Origin: Burkholderiales bacterium | Lineage (GTDB): Bacteria; Pseudomonadota; Gammaproteobacteria; Burkholderiales; Burkholderiaceae_C | Assembly (NCBI GenBank): GCA_947372465.1 | Contig: CANBTT010000001.1 | Location: forward strand, 62,001-126,000 | Length of the DNA stretch: 64,000 nt | Direction of reading: 5' to 3' | Part shown: positions 52,035 through 61,553 of the stretch, in pieces | Numbering within the stretch: position 1 is the first letter of the stretch | Layout: each line of letters begins with the position of its first letter | Position numbers and translations under genes: made by a program | The notes under the pieces: generated by a model | Database searches by the model: none | The model's input: only the letters and a program-made list of their open reading frames with translations | Told to the model about the DNA's origin: nothing

Positions 52035-52589
52035 TCAACCTCTTGGCAAGGGAACAGCACCTTCTGGAATGGGCTGCCTGATGGCGTTCAAAATGACCGA
52101 CACAAAACCAAAATAACCAATGGTGGACAGCAAGTCCAAGGTGGTCAACTCACCAAATCTTGAGATGGCTTTTGCATATGTGACGTCGCTCACGTCTTTA
52201 TCGAACAAAATTTCATGTGTGAACGCATAAATAAGCGACAAATCCGTGTTTTCTAAAGAAGGCCTCTCACCATTTCGAATGGACTCAATGATCGCGGGAT
52301 GCAAGCCGAGTTCAAGCGCCAATTTGCTGTGTGCATACCACTCGTAATCGGCAGACCAAAATTTTGCAGTGATCAAAATTGCAAACTCACGGTGCAAGGG
52401 CTCAAGCGTGCTTTCAAATCGGATGCTATCGCCCAAGAGACGAACGCGGTCCGTGAGGGTTGGGTTTCGCAGCAGTGCATTGAACGGCCCACGCAGACCC
52501 TTTCTCGGGCCGTTGATCAGCGCCTGGGCAGCAGCTTGTTGCTGCTCGTTCATTTGTTCCAAGGGAATGGGTTTGAATCTTTGTGTCAT
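52035..52589 (-). CDS. Carboxymuconolactone decarboxylase-like protein
   Basis: The 184-residue all-helical protein resembles CMD/AhpD-like proteins, with GPFNALLRNPTLTDRVRLLG and REFAILITAKFWSADYEWYAHSKLA. The AhpD redox CxxC is absent (the position reads FWSADYEW), so it is closer to CMD-type proteins of uncertain activity. ATG 52589 is preceded by AAGGTG. Its start lies 9 bp downstream of the ThDP enzyme stop. Confidence 0.8.
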   Translation of the reverse strand: MTQRFKPIPLEQMNEQQQAAAQALINGPRKGLRGPFNALLRNPTLTDRVRLLGDSIRFESTLEPLHREFAILITAKFWSADYEWYAHSKLALELGLHPAIIESIRNGERPSLENTDLSLIYAFTHEILFDKDVSDVTYAKAISRFGELTTLDLLSTIGYFGFVSVILNAIRQPIPEGAVPLPRG

Positions 52590-52597
52590 GGGGCACC

Positions 52598-54274
52598 TTA
52601 AGTGGGTAACCAAGCCATCGGCGCTTGGTAAGCAAATTCTGTTTTTACATCAATCACAGTGGGCAAATGGCTTTGAAGGGCTTGCTCAAAAGCCTGTTGA
52701 AAATCATCGGCCTTCTCTACCGTGAGGCCCAAACAGCCGTAGGCTTGGGCAATTTTTGCAAAGTCAGTTTTTTCATAAACATAGCACTCTGATTTTTTGC
52801 CCTCCTCGCGACCTGCATAGGCGATGTTGAGATTCTTGAGACCTTGTGAGAGGCACTCGTTGTTGTTCACAATCACGATCACATTGAGGCCCATTCGCTT
52901 GGCTGTTTCAAGCTCGGGCAAATGGTAGGCAAAGCCCCCGTCTCCAGTAAAACAAACGACGGCTCTGTTTGGAGCTGCAGCTTTTGCGCCAATGGCGGCA
53001 GGGAATGACCAGCCCAAAGAACCCGCGGCTCTGATGTAGGTTTGATCCTCGTGGGTGAACTCCACATAGTTGCCTGTCCACAATGCCGAATAACCCGTAT
53101 CGGCCACCAAAATGGCATCTTTGGGCAGCAATCTTGTCAACTCCGCGCACAGTCTTTGAGGTCTGATAGGGGCTTGAGCTCGGCTCAAGTCGGCTTGAAT
53201 GTCTAGTCGCCACTGTGCAAGAAGGGCCGCTGAATGGTCCAACCAATCGGTGTGTTTAAGGGGCTCCATGACAGCGCACAAGTCCGTTAAAAAGCTCCTG
53301 ATATCACTTTGAACCGCGAGGGTATGGGTGTAATTTCGACCAAGCTCTACAGGATCCATGTCCACTTGAATAATGGGCGTACCCACCCTTGGCAATTTCC
53401 AATTGCCCGTGGTGTGATCGCTCGTATTGCTGCCCAGATAAATCACCAAATCCGACTCATCCACGATGTGATTGCTGCAACTTCGTCCATACAAACCAAC
53501 CGTTCCACGGTAATAAGGATCGCGCTCGATCATGATGGATTTGGCATCCAAGGTGGTCACCACGGGGGCATCGATTTTGGCAGCGAAAGATTTCAAGGCC
53601 TCGCGTGCGCCCGAGATCACCGCACCTCGGTCAACCACAATGACGGGCTTGATGGAGTTGTTGATCGCTGTCTTGCATTGTTCGATCAGTGCCAGATCGG
53701 GCCTGGGTCTAAAGGCGGGAAACTGCGCATGCACGGCATCCACAACCACCTCCTCACTCATTTCAAGCGGCGTGATGGCGTCCCCTGTGAAACCAGCCAC
53801 GTCGATGTGAACAGGCCTTGGAGTGCTTGTCGTGGCCTCTCTAAAGGCTTGCCTGATCAAATGAGGCATTTGTTCGATGACCTCCATTTGTGCACTGAAC
53901 TTGGTCACGGGTCTGAACAGTGGGGTGTGCTCCACCTCTTGGTATGCGTTCTTGTACTGCATGGCAGCCACATGGCGCCCGGTGAAAGCAATCACACTGG
54001 AGTGACCCAAATAGGGATCTTGCATGGAAGCCGCCAAATTGGCTGCACCCACCGATTGAGCCATGCAAATGCCTGGTTTGCCCGCAATTCGAGCATAACC
54101 ATCCGCCATGTAACCCACACCCTTTTCGGAGTGACCCAGCACGCGAACAATGGAAGTGTCCTCAATTTCAGCCAGCATGCGGCGCAAAATCGCATCCATG
54201 AAAAAAATATGTGTCACACCATATGCTTGTAGCATCTGTGCGAAAAATGTCGCACCCGTTTTCTTTGAGCTCAA
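52598..54274 (-). CDS. Cytoplasmic ThDP-dependent enzyme (acetolactate synthase-like superfamily)
   Basis: The 558-residue protein has the three-domain ThDP architecture: an N-terminal Pyr domain with activating Glu50 (GHSEKGVGYMADGYAR), a central domain (KPVIVVDRGAVISG) and a C-terminal PP domain (CFTGDGGFAYHLPELETAK to IVNNNE). Acetolactate synthases, benzoylformate decarboxylases and related lyases share it; the reaction is unassigned. It starts with TTG 54274 after GGAGA; an ATG 13 codons in would cut into the family N-terminus. It heads a run with CMD-like, Bug and cupin genes. Confidence 0.83.
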   Translation of the reverse strand: MSSKKTGATFFAQMLQAYGVTHIFFMDAILRRMLAEIEDTSIVRVLGHSEKGVGYMADGYARIAGKPGICMAQSVGAANLAASMQDPYLGHSSVIAFTGRHVAAMQYKNAYQEVEHTPLFRPVTKFSAQMEVIEQMPHLIRQAFREATTSTPRPVHIDVAGFTGDAITPLEMSEEVVVDAVHAQFPAFRPRPDLALIEQCKTAINNSIKPVIVVDRGAVISGAREALKSFAAKIDAPVVTTLDAKSIMIERDPYYRGTVGLYGRSCSNHIVDESDLVIYLGSNTSDHTTGNWKLPRVGTPIIQVDMDPVELGRNYTHTLAVQSDIRSFLTDLCAVMEPLKHTDWLDHSAALLAQWRLDIQADLSRAQAPIRPQRLCAELTRLLPKDAILVADTGYSALWTGNYVEFTHEDQTYIRAAGSLGWSFPAAIGAKAAAPNRAVVCFTGDGGFAYHLPELETAKRMGLNVIVIVNNNECLSQGLKNLNIAYAGREEGKKSECYVYEKTDFAKIAQAYGCLGLTVEKADDFQQAFEQALQSHLPTVIDVKTEFAYQAPMAWLPT

Positions 54275-54372: not shown

Positions 54373-54412
54373 AAAAAAGCGAGATCACCCAAACATGCAG
54401 CAACCTCGCTTT
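54373..54412 (-). terminator. Intrinsic terminator downstream of the cytochrome c gene
   Basis: On the minus strand AAAGCGAG pairs perfectly with CTCGCTTT across a 21-base loop, and a run of T follows. It separates the exported-ThDP/cytochrome unit from the cytoplasmic ThDP gene at 54274. Confidence 0.7.
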
Positions 54413-54471: not shown

Positions 54472-54834
54472 TTATTTCATCTGCAACAAAGGCAAGGTCT
54501 TGGGGTCTGGCGCAGCTGGCATGCTCTCAAGATAGGCATGGATATTGGCCAACTCTTCAGCCGAGAGAATTTTCTCGGAATAAGGTGGCATGGGACCCAC
54601 CGTGTTTCGAATGAAAGCATTGAAATAGGCCAAGGGTTTTGGATTGGGCGCAAGCTTGAGACCTGCAACTCCTCCCTGACCTTGTGTTCCATGGCACTGC
54701 CAACAACCATTTTTCATGTAAGCCGCCTCTCCCTCCTTGGCAGTCGCAGCGTGAGACCATGGGGTCTGAGACAAGAGCACCAAGGCACCTAAAGAAAATG
54801 CAATGGATTTCATTTTTTTAACAGATACTTTCAT
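54472..54834 (-). CDS. Periplasmic monohaem cytochrome c
   Basis: The 120-residue protein has a signal peptide ending PWSHAA (about 30), one haem motif CWQCHG and a conventional axial-Met region VGPMPPYSEKILSAEELANI. ATG 54834 was chosen because AAGGA lies eight bases upstream; longer and shorter starts exist. It begins 29 bp after the exported ThDP enzyme's stop, and a terminator follows, so the two form a two-gene unit. It is the likely electron acceptor of that enzyme, by inference from position. Confidence 0.87.
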   Translation of the reverse strand: MKVSVKKMKSIAFSLGALVLLSQTPWSHAATAKEGEAAYMKNGCWQCHGTQGQGGVAGLKLAPNPKPLAYFNAFIRNTVGPMPPYSEKILSAEELANIHAYLESMPAAPDPKTLPLLQMK

Positions 54835-54863
54835 CAATAATTCCTTCATTGGCTTGCGTTGCA

Positions 54864-56867
54864 TTATCTAGGTTGAGTCCACACGTTCAAAAGCGCTGGG
54901 TGACCAGACTTGACCACCTCCACGGCTTCCTTCAGCGCTGGACCCAAATCCTCTGGGCGCTTAATGGGTCCCTTGGCCCACCAGCCCATTGACTCAGCCA
55001 ATTTATGGTATTCAATGTCAGGGTTTTGAATGCTGGTACCAATGGGTCCCATGTCATTGCCGTTGTTGACTTTTCTATTTCTAAAGTTGGCCAACCTTTG
55101 CAAATGCATCACCTCTTGGTGATAGCCTCGGTTGTTGTGCATGACCGACAACAATGGAATCTTGTGGTGTGCCGCAGTCCATAAAACACCAGGCGCAAAC
55201 ATCAAGTCACCGTCTGATTGAATGCTCACTGAGAATCGACCCAAGTCACGGTTTGCAAGAGCAGCACCAACAGAGGCGGGCGCACCATACCCTACACCAT
55301 AACCCCCTGAGCGACCCAACCACTGATAGTGCTTCTCAAACGGCCACAAACGGTTGGGCCAGTTGCTGACATTGCCTTCAGAGGCAACCAGTGACCAATC
55401 CAGATGCTTGATCGCGTGATAAATCTCCATAGAGAACCGCGCCGTGCTGATGGGGCTTGCATTCCAAGCCACTGCGGCTTGGGCTTGCGTCTTGGCAAAC
55501 TCCTCGGCATAGGCCTTCTTTGCATTCTCACCACGCTTGGCAATTTGGTCTTTTTTGTCGTTGGGGATGGCCGATTTGAGCGCCTCAATCAAGGCGGGCA
55601 TGGTCGCCTCCGCATCTGCGGGCATAGAGACGTCAATCTCTTGAAAACGCTGGAAATCTTGGTAATTGGCTTTGGTGATCAACTCAGCCGCATTGATGCT
55701 GATGAGCTTGGTGCCGGGCTTGATCTTGGAGGCCTGAGAGCCCGTGCCCTCGTTCAAGTGGTTGTCGGTGTACTGATTGACCGTGGCCCAAAAGTCAGAC
55801 AACTCCAAGCCCAAAATCACATCCGCTCCTCCAATGACAGCAGCGGGACTGCTCAGATAATGGGTCCTTGGGAAGTTCATGCGACTGCCCTGATCCACCA
55901 CACGTGCTTGCAAGACTTCAGCGAGCTCAACCAACAAACCCACCCCTTTGGGTGTTCTTGCACTGCGATCAACCACGATCACGGGGTTTTGAGCTTGGGC
56001 CAACAAACGAGCGGCCTCCTTGACTGCGCCAGAATCACCCTGAGGTGGGCTGCTTGGAATGTACCTAGGAATGGTGGGCATGAAGCCCCCCTTCTCTTTC
56101 ACAGGCTCAGACTGCAAGGCCGCGTCCAAAGAAAACGCCACAGGCCCGAAGGGCGGCGTCATGGCAATTTTGTAGCCCCTGACCATGGATTGAGCAAAAT
56201 GCTGCAATGACACAGGCGCATCGTCCCATTTTGTGTAATCACGCACAATGGCGCAAATGTCTTGTGCCGAGTGGAAGGTGGGCACACCAGGCGGACGGTA
56301 AGCTGCATCGGTGTCGTTGCCGCCCACCACAATGACGGGCACTCGATCGCACCAAGCGTTGTACATGGCCATGGTCGCGTGCTGAAGACCCACTGTCCCG
56401 TGACACAAAGACATCAAAGGCTTGCCCGACGCCTTGAAGTAGCCATGCGCCATGGCAACGGCAGATTCCTCGTGCATGCAACTGATGTACTCGGGCATGA
56501 CATTTTGGCCATAGTCAATCAAGGACTCGTGAATCGCTCTGAAGCTTGAGGCGCAATTGGAAGGAATGTATTTGATGTCCAAGGTCTTGATCACGTCGAC
56601 CATGAAATCTGATCCCGCCTTGCCGTGCACTCGGCCGCCAAGCTCAGGCGGCATGCCGCTTTCATTTCGTATGCCGTGGCCAGAGGGAGGCAATGCAGAC
56701 GGCTTCTTGGGCTCAGCGGGCGCTTTGTCAGCGGCTTGGGCCACACCAGCAGCGGAAGCACTCATCACGCCAACGGCGCTGCTTGCCACCACGCTGTTCA
56801 AAAACTGTCGCCTGGCCAGTGTGTTTTGGGGTTCTTGCTTAGGCTCTTTTTTGGGCTCTTGCTTCAT
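54864..56867 (-). CDS. Tat-exported ThDP-dependent enzyme
   Basis: The 667-residue protein begins with a lysine/glutamate-rich stretch, then a twin-arginine signal (ARRQFLNSVVASSAVGV, from residue 18) with a cleavage site after GVAQA (residue 45). The mature part is a full ThDP enzyme: activating Glu in SCMHEESAVAMAHGYF (about 132), a central domain (NPVIVVDRSAR), and the PP-domain motif QSDGDLMFAPGVLW to SVMHNNRGYH. ThDP enzymes of this superfamily are normally cytoplasmic; Tat export of a folded, cofactor-loaded enzyme is unusual. A cytochrome c gene follows. The reaction, possibly oxidative decarboxylation of a 2-oxo acid, is inferred only. The ATG has AGGAAG upstream. Confidence 0.85.
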   Translation of the reverse strand: MKQEPKKEPKQEPQNTLARRQFLNSVVASSAVGVMSASAAGVAQAADKAPAEPKKPSALPPSGHGIRNESGMPPELGGRVHGKAGSDFMVDVIKTLDIKYIPSNCASSFRAIHESLIDYGQNVMPEYISCMHEESAVAMAHGYFKASGKPLMSLCHGTVGLQHATMAMYNAWCDRVPVIVVGGNDTDAAYRPPGVPTFHSAQDICAIVRDYTKWDDAPVSLQHFAQSMVRGYKIAMTPPFGPVAFSLDAALQSEPVKEKGGFMPTIPRYIPSSPPQGDSGAVKEAARLLAQAQNPVIVVDRSARTPKGVGLLVELAEVLQARVVDQGSRMNFPRTHYLSSPAAVIGGADVILGLELSDFWATVNQYTDNHLNEGTGSQASKIKPGTKLISINAAELITKANYQDFQRFQEIDVSMPADAEATMPALIEALKSAIPNDKKDQIAKRGENAKKAYAEEFAKTQAQAAVAWNASPISTARFSMEIYHAIKHLDWSLVASEGNVSNWPNRLWPFEKHYQWLGRSGGYGVGYGAPASVGAALANRDLGRFSVSIQSDGDLMFAPGVLWTAAHHKIPLLSVMHNNRGYHQEVMHLQRLANFRNRKVNNGNDMGPIGTSIQNPDIEYHKLAESMGWWAKGPIKRPEDLGPALKEAVEVVKSGHPALLNVWTQPR

Positions 56868-57072: not shown

Positions 57073-58491
57073 ATGCGCATGAACTTTGAATTTGAGGCGA
57101 TGAACGCTGTATTTGCTTTACAAAAGGATTTATCCCGCAAAACCCCACCCACATCCCTATCGCAACGACGTGCCCAACTGCTCAAATTACTGGACGTTCT
57201 TGGCAGCAAAAAAGAGGCCCTTCAAGCGGCGATCAACGCAGACTTTCAAACACGAAGTGCGCATGAAACCTTGGCCGCAGAGATCATGACCAGCATGCAA
57301 GAGATCCACTACACGCTCAGACATTTAAAGAAGTGGATGAAAGACACCCCTGTGAAAGTACCTTATTGGCTTCAACCTGGGCGCGCCAAAATCAAACCCC
57401 AAGCCTTGGGATGCGTTGGCATCATCGTGCCCTGGAATTACCCTTTGTACTTGGCGATTTCACCGCTTTGTGCTGCACTTTCAGCAGGCAACCGCGTGAT
57501 GATCAAAATGTCTGAGCAAACGCCAAATTTTGCGGCCTTTTTCAAAGATGAAATTGACAGCATCTTCTCCAATGAAGAGGTGCATGTGGTCAACGGTGAG
57601 AGGTCTCTTGGCGTGGCCTTTTCACAATTGCCTTTTGACCATTTGTTCTTCACGGGATCCAGTGCGGTGGGCAAAGAGGTGATGAAAGTCTGTGCAACAA
57701 ACCTCACGCCCCTGACTTTGGAGTTGGGTGGCAAGTCCCCTGCTTTGATCACCCCAAAATGCAATCTTAAAGATGTTGCTCAAAAAATCATCTACGGCAA
57801 GCTCTTCAACGCAGGACAAACCTGTATCGCACCCGACTATGTCTTGGTGCCCAAAGTGCAGCGTGAAGATTTGCTCATTGAACTCAAAGCCGCCTGCGAA
57901 AAGCTCTTCCCCAGTTTAGAGGCAAATCCAGACTTTAGCGCCATCATCAACCAGACACAACACACTCGACTGCAACGTTTATTGCTTGAGGCACAAACGC
58001 TCAAGGCCACAGTCACGCCTCTTCATCCCGAAACATTGAACACCTTGAGCAGAAAATTCGCGCCCACAGCGGTCTTACTGGACATGGATTCACCGCTTTC
58101 GTTGATGAGAGAGGAAATATTTGGCCCCATCTTGCCCATTGTGGCTTATGACAACATGGACGAAGCCATCGCCTTCATCAATGCCAAAGACAGGCCCTTG
58201 GCTTTGTATGTCTTTGGGCAAGACACCTTGCTGATCGAAAACGTGCTCAACCACACCGTGTCAGGTGGGGTCACCGTCAACGGCGTGTTTAACCATCTGC
58301 TGACCCATGAGTTGCCCTTTGGAGGGGTTGGGCAAAGCGGCATGGGCGCCTACCATGGCAAAACAGGGTTTGACACCTTTAGCAAACAAAAAAGCATTTT
58401 CACGCAAAGCCCATGGTCCATGGCGTTCTTGCTTTACCCCCCCTATGGATGGTTTTTCAAAAAAGTCATGCAATTCATCATGGGCAAATGA
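57073..58491 (+). CDS. Aldehyde dehydrogenase, coniferyl-aldehyde dehydrogenase-like
   Basis: The 472-residue NAD(P)-dependent enzyme oxidises an aldehyde to an acid. It has VPWNYPLYLAISPLCAALSAGN, FTGSSAVGKEVM, the general-base Glu in LELGGKSPALI, the nucleophilic Cys in NAGQTCIAPDYVLVP and a C-terminal hydrophobic tail (WSMAFLLYPPYGWFFKKVMQF). The APDYVLVP variant and short N-terminus fit the coniferyl-aldehyde/class 3 group. The exact aldehyde is unknown. It is divergent from the exported ThDP enzyme, whose aldehyde product it could oxidise if that enzyme is a decarboxylase, although the compartments differ. Confidence 0.88.
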   Translation: MRMNFEFEAMNAVFALQKDLSRKTPPTSLSQRRAQLLKLLDVLGSKKEALQAAINADFQTRSAHETLAAEIMTSMQEIHYTLRHLKKWMKDTPVKVPYWLQPGRAKIKPQALGCVGIIVPWNYPLYLAISPLCAALSAGNRVMIKMSEQTPNFAAFFKDEIDSIFSNEEVHVVNGERSLGVAFSQLPFDHLFFTGSSAVGKEVMKVCATNLTPLTLELGGKSPALITPKCNLKDVAQKIIYGKLFNAGQTCIAPDYVLVPKVQREDLLIELKAACEKLFPSLEANPDFSAIINQTQHTRLQRLLLEAQTLKATVTPLHPETLNTLSRKFAPTAVLLDMDSPLSLMREEIFGPILPIVAYDNMDEAIAFINAKDRPLALYVFGQDTLLIENVLNHTVSGGVTVNGVFNHLLTHELPFGGVGQSGMGAYHGKTGFDTFSKQKSIFTQSPWSMAFLLYPPYGWFFKKVMQFIMGK

Positions 58492-60434: not shown

Positions 60435-61553
60435 ATGAAACTTTTTTCTTGTGCCTGCAAAGGTCTTGATCACCAAAGCCATCTTTATACCGGCGAGCAA
60501 CGCAGCATTGACACCTCAAAACGAGGTTTTTTAACGGGCTTGGCGGGTGTCGCAGCAGGTCTGGGTGGCGCTGGCTCCCTCCTAATGGGATCCATGGACA
60601 ACGCACACGCTCAAAGTGCGGTGAAACCTCACCGCATCGACATCCATCACCACGTGGTGCCACCGGCCTATGTTGATGCAGTCAAAAACCGCGAAGGCGT
60701 GGCAGCACCCAAATGGAGCCCACAAGCTTCCATTGAAGACATGGACGCGAACGGCATCGCAACGTCTGTCGTTGCCCTGATTCAACCAGGCGCCTACTTC
60801 AAAGATGTTGAGTTGGATCGCCGCTTGTCCAGAGACTCCAACGAGTACGTGGCAAAAATGGTCCAAACCTATCCAGGTCGTTTTGGCTCCTTTGCCACCT
60901 TGCCTTTGATGGATGTCCCAGGCAGTTTGAAAGAAATTGAATACGCCATGGACACGCTCAAAGCCGATGGCATTGGCCTGATGACCTCTTACGGCACCAA
61001 GTATTTGGGTGATAAACATTTTTGGCCCATTTGGGAAGAACTCAATCGCCGAGGTGCCGCAATCTATGTTCACCCTCTGATGCCCGAGTGCTGTAAAAAC
61101 CCCTTCCCAGAGGTTCCCCCTTCTGCGATTGAATATGCAACCGATACCACACGCACGATCGCCAGCATGCTCTTTGGTGGTGCGGCCAACAAGTTCCCCA
61201 ATATCAAATGGATTTGGTCACACAGTGGTGGCACAATGCCTTTCCTTTGGAGTCGCTTTACACGCCAAGAAGTGGACATGAAAGAAAAGGCCAAGGAAGT
61301 TTTGCCCAATGGCGTGCTCGCAGAGGTCAAACGCTTTCACTATGACACAGCGCAAGGTCATCACGAAGGGGCCATGGCTGCATTAAGAGCCCTCATCCCC
61401 ACTTCACAAATCATGTTTGGCAGCGACTTCCCTTACAGAAAAGGCGCCGAAGTCAAAGATGGCTTGGCTGCACGCAGTTTCACGGCCGAAGAGAGAATGG
61501 CCATAGATCGCGGTAACGCTTTGCGCATCATGCCCAAGCTTAAAACGATTTAA
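60435..61553 (+). CDS. Exported amidohydrolase (ACMSD-like amidohydrolase_2 family)
   Basis: The 372-residue protein has an N-terminal signal with SKRGFLTGLAGVAAGLGGAG (residues 28-47), a Tat-like motif in which the first Arg is Lys, ending near AHAQS. The mature enzyme shows the metal-binding DIHHHVVPP, IYVHPLMPE, WSHSGGTMPF and the catalytic Asp in FGSDFPYRK. The family performs non-oxidative decarboxylation or hydrolysis of aromatic and related acids. AAGGAG precedes the ATG. Periplasmic location is inferred from the leader. A perfect terminator follows. Confidence 0.82.
   Translation: MKLFSCACKGLDHQSHLYTGEQRSIDTSKRGFLTGLAGVAAGLGGAGSLLMGSMDNAHAQSAVKPHRIDIHHHVVPPAYVDAVKNREGVAAPKWSPQASIEDMDANGIATSVVALIQPGAYFKDVELDRRLSRDSNEYVAKMVQTYPGRFGSFATLPLMDVPGSLKEIEYAMDTLKADGIGLMTSYGTKYLGDKHFWPIWEELNRRGAAIYVHPLMPECCKNPFPEVPPSAIEYATDTTRTIASMLFGGAANKFPNIKWIWSHSGGTMPFLWSRFTRQEVDMKEKAKEVLPNGVLAEVKRFHYDTAQGHHEGAMAALRALIPTSQIMFGSDFPYRKGAEVKDGLAARSFTAEERMAIDRGNALRIMPKLKTI

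Follow-up and report, generated by a model that had tools for sequence, protein, structure and literature searches.

Organization of the gene pair

The window (the whole 64,000-nucleotide stretch of DNA that was analysed) contains on its minus strand a gene for a 667-residue ThDP-dependent enzyme with a predicted export signal, followed by a gene for a small cytochrome c. The following features are considered below.

54864-56867, minus strand: ThDP-dependent enzyme with twin-arginine (Tat) signal, 667 aa (open reading frame, Pfam domains, structure model)
56730-56867, minus strand: twin-arginine signal peptide (ARRQFLN, hydrophobic stretch, AQA-A), 46 residues (read from the sequence)
56466-56474, minus strand: His132-Glu133-Glu134, Glu133 being the expected ThDP-activating Glu (alignment)
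56400-56402, minus strand: His156, invariant in alignment A1
55131-55217, minus strand: ThDP/Mg-binding motif SDGD...NN, residues 551-579 (sequence and alignment A1)
54472-54834, minus strand: monohaem cytochrome c, Sec-type signal by eye, 120 aa from the conserved start (Pfam, alignment A2, model)
54691-54705, minus strand: CWQCH haem-binding motif (sequence and alignment A2)
54475-54513, minus strand: conserved C-terminal tail (K-T-L-P-L-L) beyond the cytochrome domain, candidate docking element
54373-54412, minus strand: terminator-like hairpin and U tract closing the gene pair (strand folding)
57073-58491, plus strand: divergent aldehyde dehydrogenase, PF00171 (context only)

The ThDP-dependent enzyme

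In the profile search the 667-residue protein matches PF02776, PF00205 and PF02775, each above the Pfam cut-off, and it has the domain order TPP_enzyme_N, M, C of the ThDP decarboxylase family. Its predicted structure (pLDDT 79.7) is matched by Foldseek to the same family, the top match being benzaldehyde lyase 2uz1 (TM 0.76 by target, ~20% identity). By sequence it comes closest, among solved proteins, to benzoylformate decarboxylases and to benzaldehyde lyase: the latter ranks top in the single-sequence search, and 4q9d together with benzoylformate decarboxylase are the top matches of the family profile. None of the best 25 of 49 NCBIfam matches reaches the cut-off of its own model. The top one among these 25, PRK08327 (NF006203, thiamine pyrophosphate-requiring protein), scores 207.7 bits and stays far below its cut-off of 456, and the benzoylformate decarboxylase model NF005485 is not passed either (147.5 bits against 493).

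The preliminary description of this locus credited the protein with ThDP-binding motifs. The signature SDGD...NN is indeed present, with Ser replacing the first Gly of GDG, and D552, G553, D554, N578 and N579 are invariant in all 35 aligned family members (alignment A1); the loss of ThDP-contacting residues, envisaged there as possible counter-evidence, does not occur among these members. Glu133 aligns with the HE of benzaldehyde lyase and with the Glu of QEAC in benzoylformate decarboxylase. Its position is occupied by Glu in 34 of the 35 members and by Asp in the remaining one (locus L027). At the position of the invariant His156, benzoylformate decarboxylase has its NLHSAAG His, which we take to be the catalytic His70 of that enzyme.

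The known respiratory members of this ThDP fold use flavin. The acetolactate synthase loops GGG, TLMGLG, LGMHG and GARFDDR, presumably the FAD contacts, are absent both from the present family and from a second Tat-ThDP family encoded in the same genome (see below); the reference for this comparison was the acetolactate synthase of the same genome.

The twin-arginine signal

The twin-arginine signal and the AQA site reported previously are read directly from the sequence: RR is formed by residues 19-20 and is followed by F22, a hydrophobic stretch and AQA-A at positions 43-46. The RR pair is invariant in 35/35 members of alignment A1. RRxF precedes the core in all 78 untruncated enzyme N-termini among the 81 loci described below (three more are cut by contig ends), and the 14-residue stretch after RRxF has a mean hydropathy of at least 1.22 (median 1.66) in the same 78 N-termini. 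TatC is encoded in the source genome. This genome has nine ThDP enzymes over the cut-off; two of them bear a Tat signal, each with a CXXCH neighbour of its own.

Enzymes with this ThDP fold normally reside in the cytoplasm, and the export considered here is a sequence prediction. This would suit an enzyme which stays in the cytoplasm with its Tat signal unused, next to a cytochrome that is an unrelated neighbour. Such a situation is very improbable in view of the strict conservation of RRxF and the hydrophobic stretch, the presence of TatC and the CXXCH frame that accompanies the enzyme at every one of the 81 loci. Since ThDP sites are formed between subunits, export would have to move a dimer or let the dimer assemble outside.

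The partner cytochrome c and the terminator

The downstream protein matches PF13442 (4e-11) and PF00034 above the cut-off and has a single CWQCH. Its reading frame is open to 54864, where it touches the stop codon of the enzyme. The ATG at 54834 is favoured as the start by the relatives at L010, L011 and L012 (by eye) and leaves a gap of 29 nt to the enzyme stop, in agreement with the signal-bearing monohaem cytochrome 29 nt downstream that had been described. Alignment A2 has 9 invariant columns in 34 sequences, including CXXCH and a Met-Pro pair; as judged from the alignment, the latter would suit the sixth ligand of the haem.

In the structure model of the cytochrome (pLDDT 85.7) the C-terminal tail has values of 90-93. 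The tail pattern (K-x-I-P-L-L-N) is matched in 70 of 78 complete partner cytochromes and in none of six other complete cytochrome frames of the source genome, a seventh frame being cut by a contig end and the PF13442 matches C7:10195, C7:26265 and C16:34500 having been left out of this comparison. The pattern is not fully specific, because it also matches two cytochromes of the second Tat-ThDP system, where it lies inside a helix. The conservation of the tail suggests that it may help docking.

A terminator had been said to close the pair. A simple scan limited to loops of 3-8 gave none at this place, but on folding the strand forms a terminator-like hairpin with 16 base pairs and a single bulge, ahead of a run of U's (-18.7 kcal/mol, z -4.83; none of 200 shuffles reached so low a value).

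Conservation of the enzyme-cytochrome pair

The contig scan found 117 relatives of the enzyme, of which the best 80 were kept; together with the copy in the window they make up 81 loci, and this sampling leans to near relatives. A CXXCH frame lies no more than 314 nt downstream of the enzyme stop in 81/81 loci, so the co-occurrence of both genes, which had been proposed as a check, is observed throughout this set. By title the records with the pair belong to Alpha- and Betaproteobacteria, Acidobacteria (L065, L073) and one Deltaproteobacterium (L059), and most of them are metagenome-assembled. With four family members added later, a cytochrome neighbour is present in 84 of 85 examined. Further members with a cytochrome are L100, on a Caballeronia plasmid and with a dihaem partner, L101, on a Novosphingobium plasmid and with two CXXCH genes, and L128. 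The exception, L129, comes from an acidobacterial genome with three copies of the enzyme: the cytochrome is found at L123 (the same as L073) and at L128, and L129 has a Tat signal with no cytochrome within about 3 kb. The dihaem cytochrome of Caballeronia zhejiangensis is located at L100:9749-10369 on plasmid p3, which is typed as mobilizable.

The distances among the enzymes correlate with those among the cytochromes (r 0.835 for 72 loci, the best of 999 permutations giving 0.24); a high correlation of this kind is also given by joint inheritance alone. The 3.05-Mb source genome has 14 matches to PF13442, 11 of them over the cut-off. Despite this abundance, a CXXCH gene beside both Tat-ThDP genes and at 81/81 loci is more than chance.

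At its own score level, the family turns up once in the phylum sample of 398 genomes, namely in the source genome itself; the second match, G238, is an outgroup. Of the 397 genomes in the order sample drawn around the Bradyrhizobium record, the centre genome alone has the family, at most three candidates per genome having been scored in both the phylum and the order sample. Within the genus it is found in 7 of 37 genomes.

Relatives of the enzyme outside the family

Eighteen relatives with 31-38% identity (L090, L097, L099, L102-L106, L125-L127 and L133-L139) served as the outgroup. A CXXCH frame longer than 70 aa was found beside 0/18 of them in about 1 to 1.4 kb searched on each side. A loose RR occurs somewhere in the whole open frame in 4/18 (L090, L105, L136 and L138): at L105 it precedes the annotated start, and at L090 and L136 no hydrophobic stretch follows it. 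L138 is borderline: after its RRRL comes a stretch whose hydropathy, 1.14, is just below the family minimum, and this RR precedes the apparent ATG. Where annotation exists, the outgroup genes have aldehyde dehydrogenases, tricarboxylate transporters or hydroxyacid enzymes beside them or close by, a setting that would suit cytoplasmic 2-oxo acid decarboxylases. In two quick tree searches, in which long branches are present, the Tat family forms one clade (SH-aLRT 99) and groups with these relatives.

A second Tat-signal ThDP system in the same genome

Another ThDP enzyme with a Tat signal is encoded elsewhere in the source genome:

G000:C7:61232-63160: second Tat-signal ThDP enzyme (L107; L115:9233-11161), between two CXXCH genes

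It has the signal ISRRGFL and is about 25% identical to the first enzyme. The downstream CXXCH protein belongs to PF13442. The protein encoded upstream matches no Pfam family and resembles SorB only weakly (24.8 bits against a cut-off of 93). The second enzyme is present in 8 of 37 genomes of the genus, with both flanking CXXCH genes in 8/8, and in no genome of the phylum sample beyond 1/398. All 7 genomes of the genus with the first family also have the second, which shared ancestry may explain. A topology in which the two Tat families form a single clade is rejected with p-AU 0.00435 (quick tree with long branches, signal region removed, 24 of 48 rows). A paralog on contig C3 has two nearby CXXCH-bearing frames, which by eye are unlike cytochromes.

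These data bear on the possibility that the ThDP enzyme has another direct oxidant, O2 or quinone, and that the cytochrome merely shares its transcript or guards against reactive oxygen. ThDP oxidases which use O2 or quinone, such as pyruvate oxidase and PoxB, do exist, and the acidobacterial copy with a Tat signal and no cytochrome would fit this explanation. It is nevertheless improbable: the FAD loops of the acetolactate synthase type are absent, records from two phyla retain the cytochrome next to the enzyme, and the second family again has a CXXCH neighbour.

Genomic surroundings

The 76 near neighbours analysed come from 39 of the 81 loci and represent a part of 154 listed ones, long or doubtful frames having been skipped for the next one. 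They fall into 75 Pfam families (E up to 1e-5), and only TctC is frequent (8/76). Clustering of all flanking frames likewise gives TctC-like proteins in 29 loci, with the runner-up family in 10. The presence of TctC (Bug) receptors near the pair was rejected as a clue to the substrate because the source genome has at least 150 of them. Given such mixed surroundings, no shared dehydrogenase explains the cytochrome, and the pair is a largely self-contained module.

In the window the cytochrome gene is adjoined, beyond the terminator, by a cytoplasmic-type ThDP gene (52598-54274). Between this gene and a TctC gene lies a frame for a 192-aa protein (52035-52613, minus strand) with no Pfam match at E 1 and an AhpD-type look by eye. 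On the plus strand, 60435-61553 encodes an Amidohydrolase-2 family protein with a Tat-like signal containing a KR pair (TSKRGFLTG). Its relatives cluster in 9 loci, and so do those of the adjacent SnoaL-like gene.

The divergent aldehyde dehydrogenase has MdlD as its top NCBIfam model (344 bits, below the cut-off of 550). It was rejected as a pathway partner, since it clusters in only 4 loci including the window; it has no sign of export. No neighbouring gene identifies the substrate. A weak hint at aromatic 2-oxo acids comes from this MdlD-like gene and from aromatic ring dioxygenase genes, which in Caballeronia lie upstream of the pair.

The same gene has to be considered in another explanation, according to which the enzyme is a periplasmic non-oxidative decarboxylase or lyase that releases an aldehyde or acyloin, while the cytochrome serves a separate dehydrogenase oxidizing this product. 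Its nearest solved sequences, benzoylformate decarboxylase and benzaldehyde lyase, point in this direction, as do the aldehyde dehydrogenase genes beside or near the outgroup relatives L104, L105 and L106 and the divergent one in the window. However, no dehydrogenase gene is seen to recur beside the pair, the divergent one is confined to the few loci mentioned and lacks any export sign, and the cytochrome is the sole near-constant partner. We regard this explanation as unlikely, although it is the most serious of those opposed to direct electron transfer.

Proposed function of the pair

Judging from the sequences, the pair is probably a two-gene, periplasmic, flavin-free 2-oxo-acid dehydrogenase which reduces its own cytochrome c. 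Oxidative decarboxylation with the cytochrome as acceptor is the simplest reading of the data, in which export, electron transfer and the chemistry are all deduced. The earlier interpretation of the locus, a periplasmic ThDP enzyme passing electrons to a cytochrome, is supported by the present analysis, with a 2-oxo acid as its presumed substrate.

The following course of the reaction can be proposed. The enzyme would take up ThDP and Mg2+ as it folds in the cytoplasm, before its export by Tat, and the cytochrome would leave by Sec and gain its haem in the periplasm. A 2-oxo acid would add to ThDP with loss of CO2, and the resulting enamine would be oxidized by the dedicated cytochrome c in two one-electron steps with no flavin involved. 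Hydrolysis of the acyl-ThDP would yield the carboxylic acid, and the electrons of the cytochrome would pass to a terminal oxidase.

A broader proposal can be made more tentatively, and we hold it to be possible rather than probable: more than once, a ThDP decarboxylase may have become a periplasmic flavin-free dehydrogenase which delivers the enamine electrons straight to a dedicated c-type haem docked via the conserved C-terminal tail, and 2-oxo acids could thus be respired without entering the cell.

In some bacteria of fresh water and soil, an apparently exported ThDP enzyme is almost always encoded next to its own small haem protein, which points to an undescribed route by which an organic acid could give up electrons in the periplasm. 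If this is true, direct coupling of a periplasmic ThDP enzyme to haem c would provide respiration with a new point of electron entry and the Breslow intermediate with a new redox partner. One would then also have to ask how a cofactor bound between two subunits gets exported. The module is a small one, is met again in a second lineage and lends itself to direct testing.

Comparison with known systems

The preliminary description did not recognize the arrangement as a described pathway, and no description of a Tat-ThDP/cytochrome pathway was found in a search limited to the PMC open-access literature. A term search within two papers on Tat substrates (PMC3305326, PMC6085387) likewise gave no description of such a pathway.

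With benzoylformate decarboxylase and benzaldehyde lyase the Tat-ThDP enzyme shares the fold, the ThDP/Mg motif and the aligned active-site Glu, and with benzoylformate decarboxylase only it also shares the active-site His at the aligned position. It is about 20% identical to these enzymes and differs from them by its Tat signal and near-constant cytochrome partner. Both of the known enzymes are non-oxidative. Pyruvate oxidase and PoxB are ThDP enzymes which oxidize a 2-oxo acid and pass the electrons to O2 or quinone. They need FAD and are cytoplasmic or located on the inner face of the membrane, whereas the Tat-ThDP enzyme has no FAD loops of the acetolactate synthase type. Pyruvate:ferredoxin oxidoreductase carries out a one-electron oxidation of the ThDP enamine, and this is its likeness to the chemistry proposed here; it uses Fe-S clusters and CoA, is cytoplasmic and has another domain order. 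SorAB sulfite dehydrogenase is a molybdenum enzyme with its own cytochrome c. It resembles the present pair in this respect, and its SorB subunit is the one to which the CXXCH protein encoded upstream of the second Tat-ThDP enzyme gives a weak match.

A similar arrangement is met in NicA2/CycN and related amine dehydrogenases, where an enzyme with a Tat signal is reported to be combined with an operon-encoded cytochrome c in several clades (PMC12224317). Among these flavoprotein amine oxidoreductases, dehydrogenases that use a cytochrome were predicted from a Tat signal together with a neighbouring cytochrome c, and the prediction was confirmed by kinetics (PMC12224317). They contain flavin and not ThDP and belong to another enzyme superfamily. 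They are the closest experimental precedent for the Tat-ThDP/cytochrome pair.
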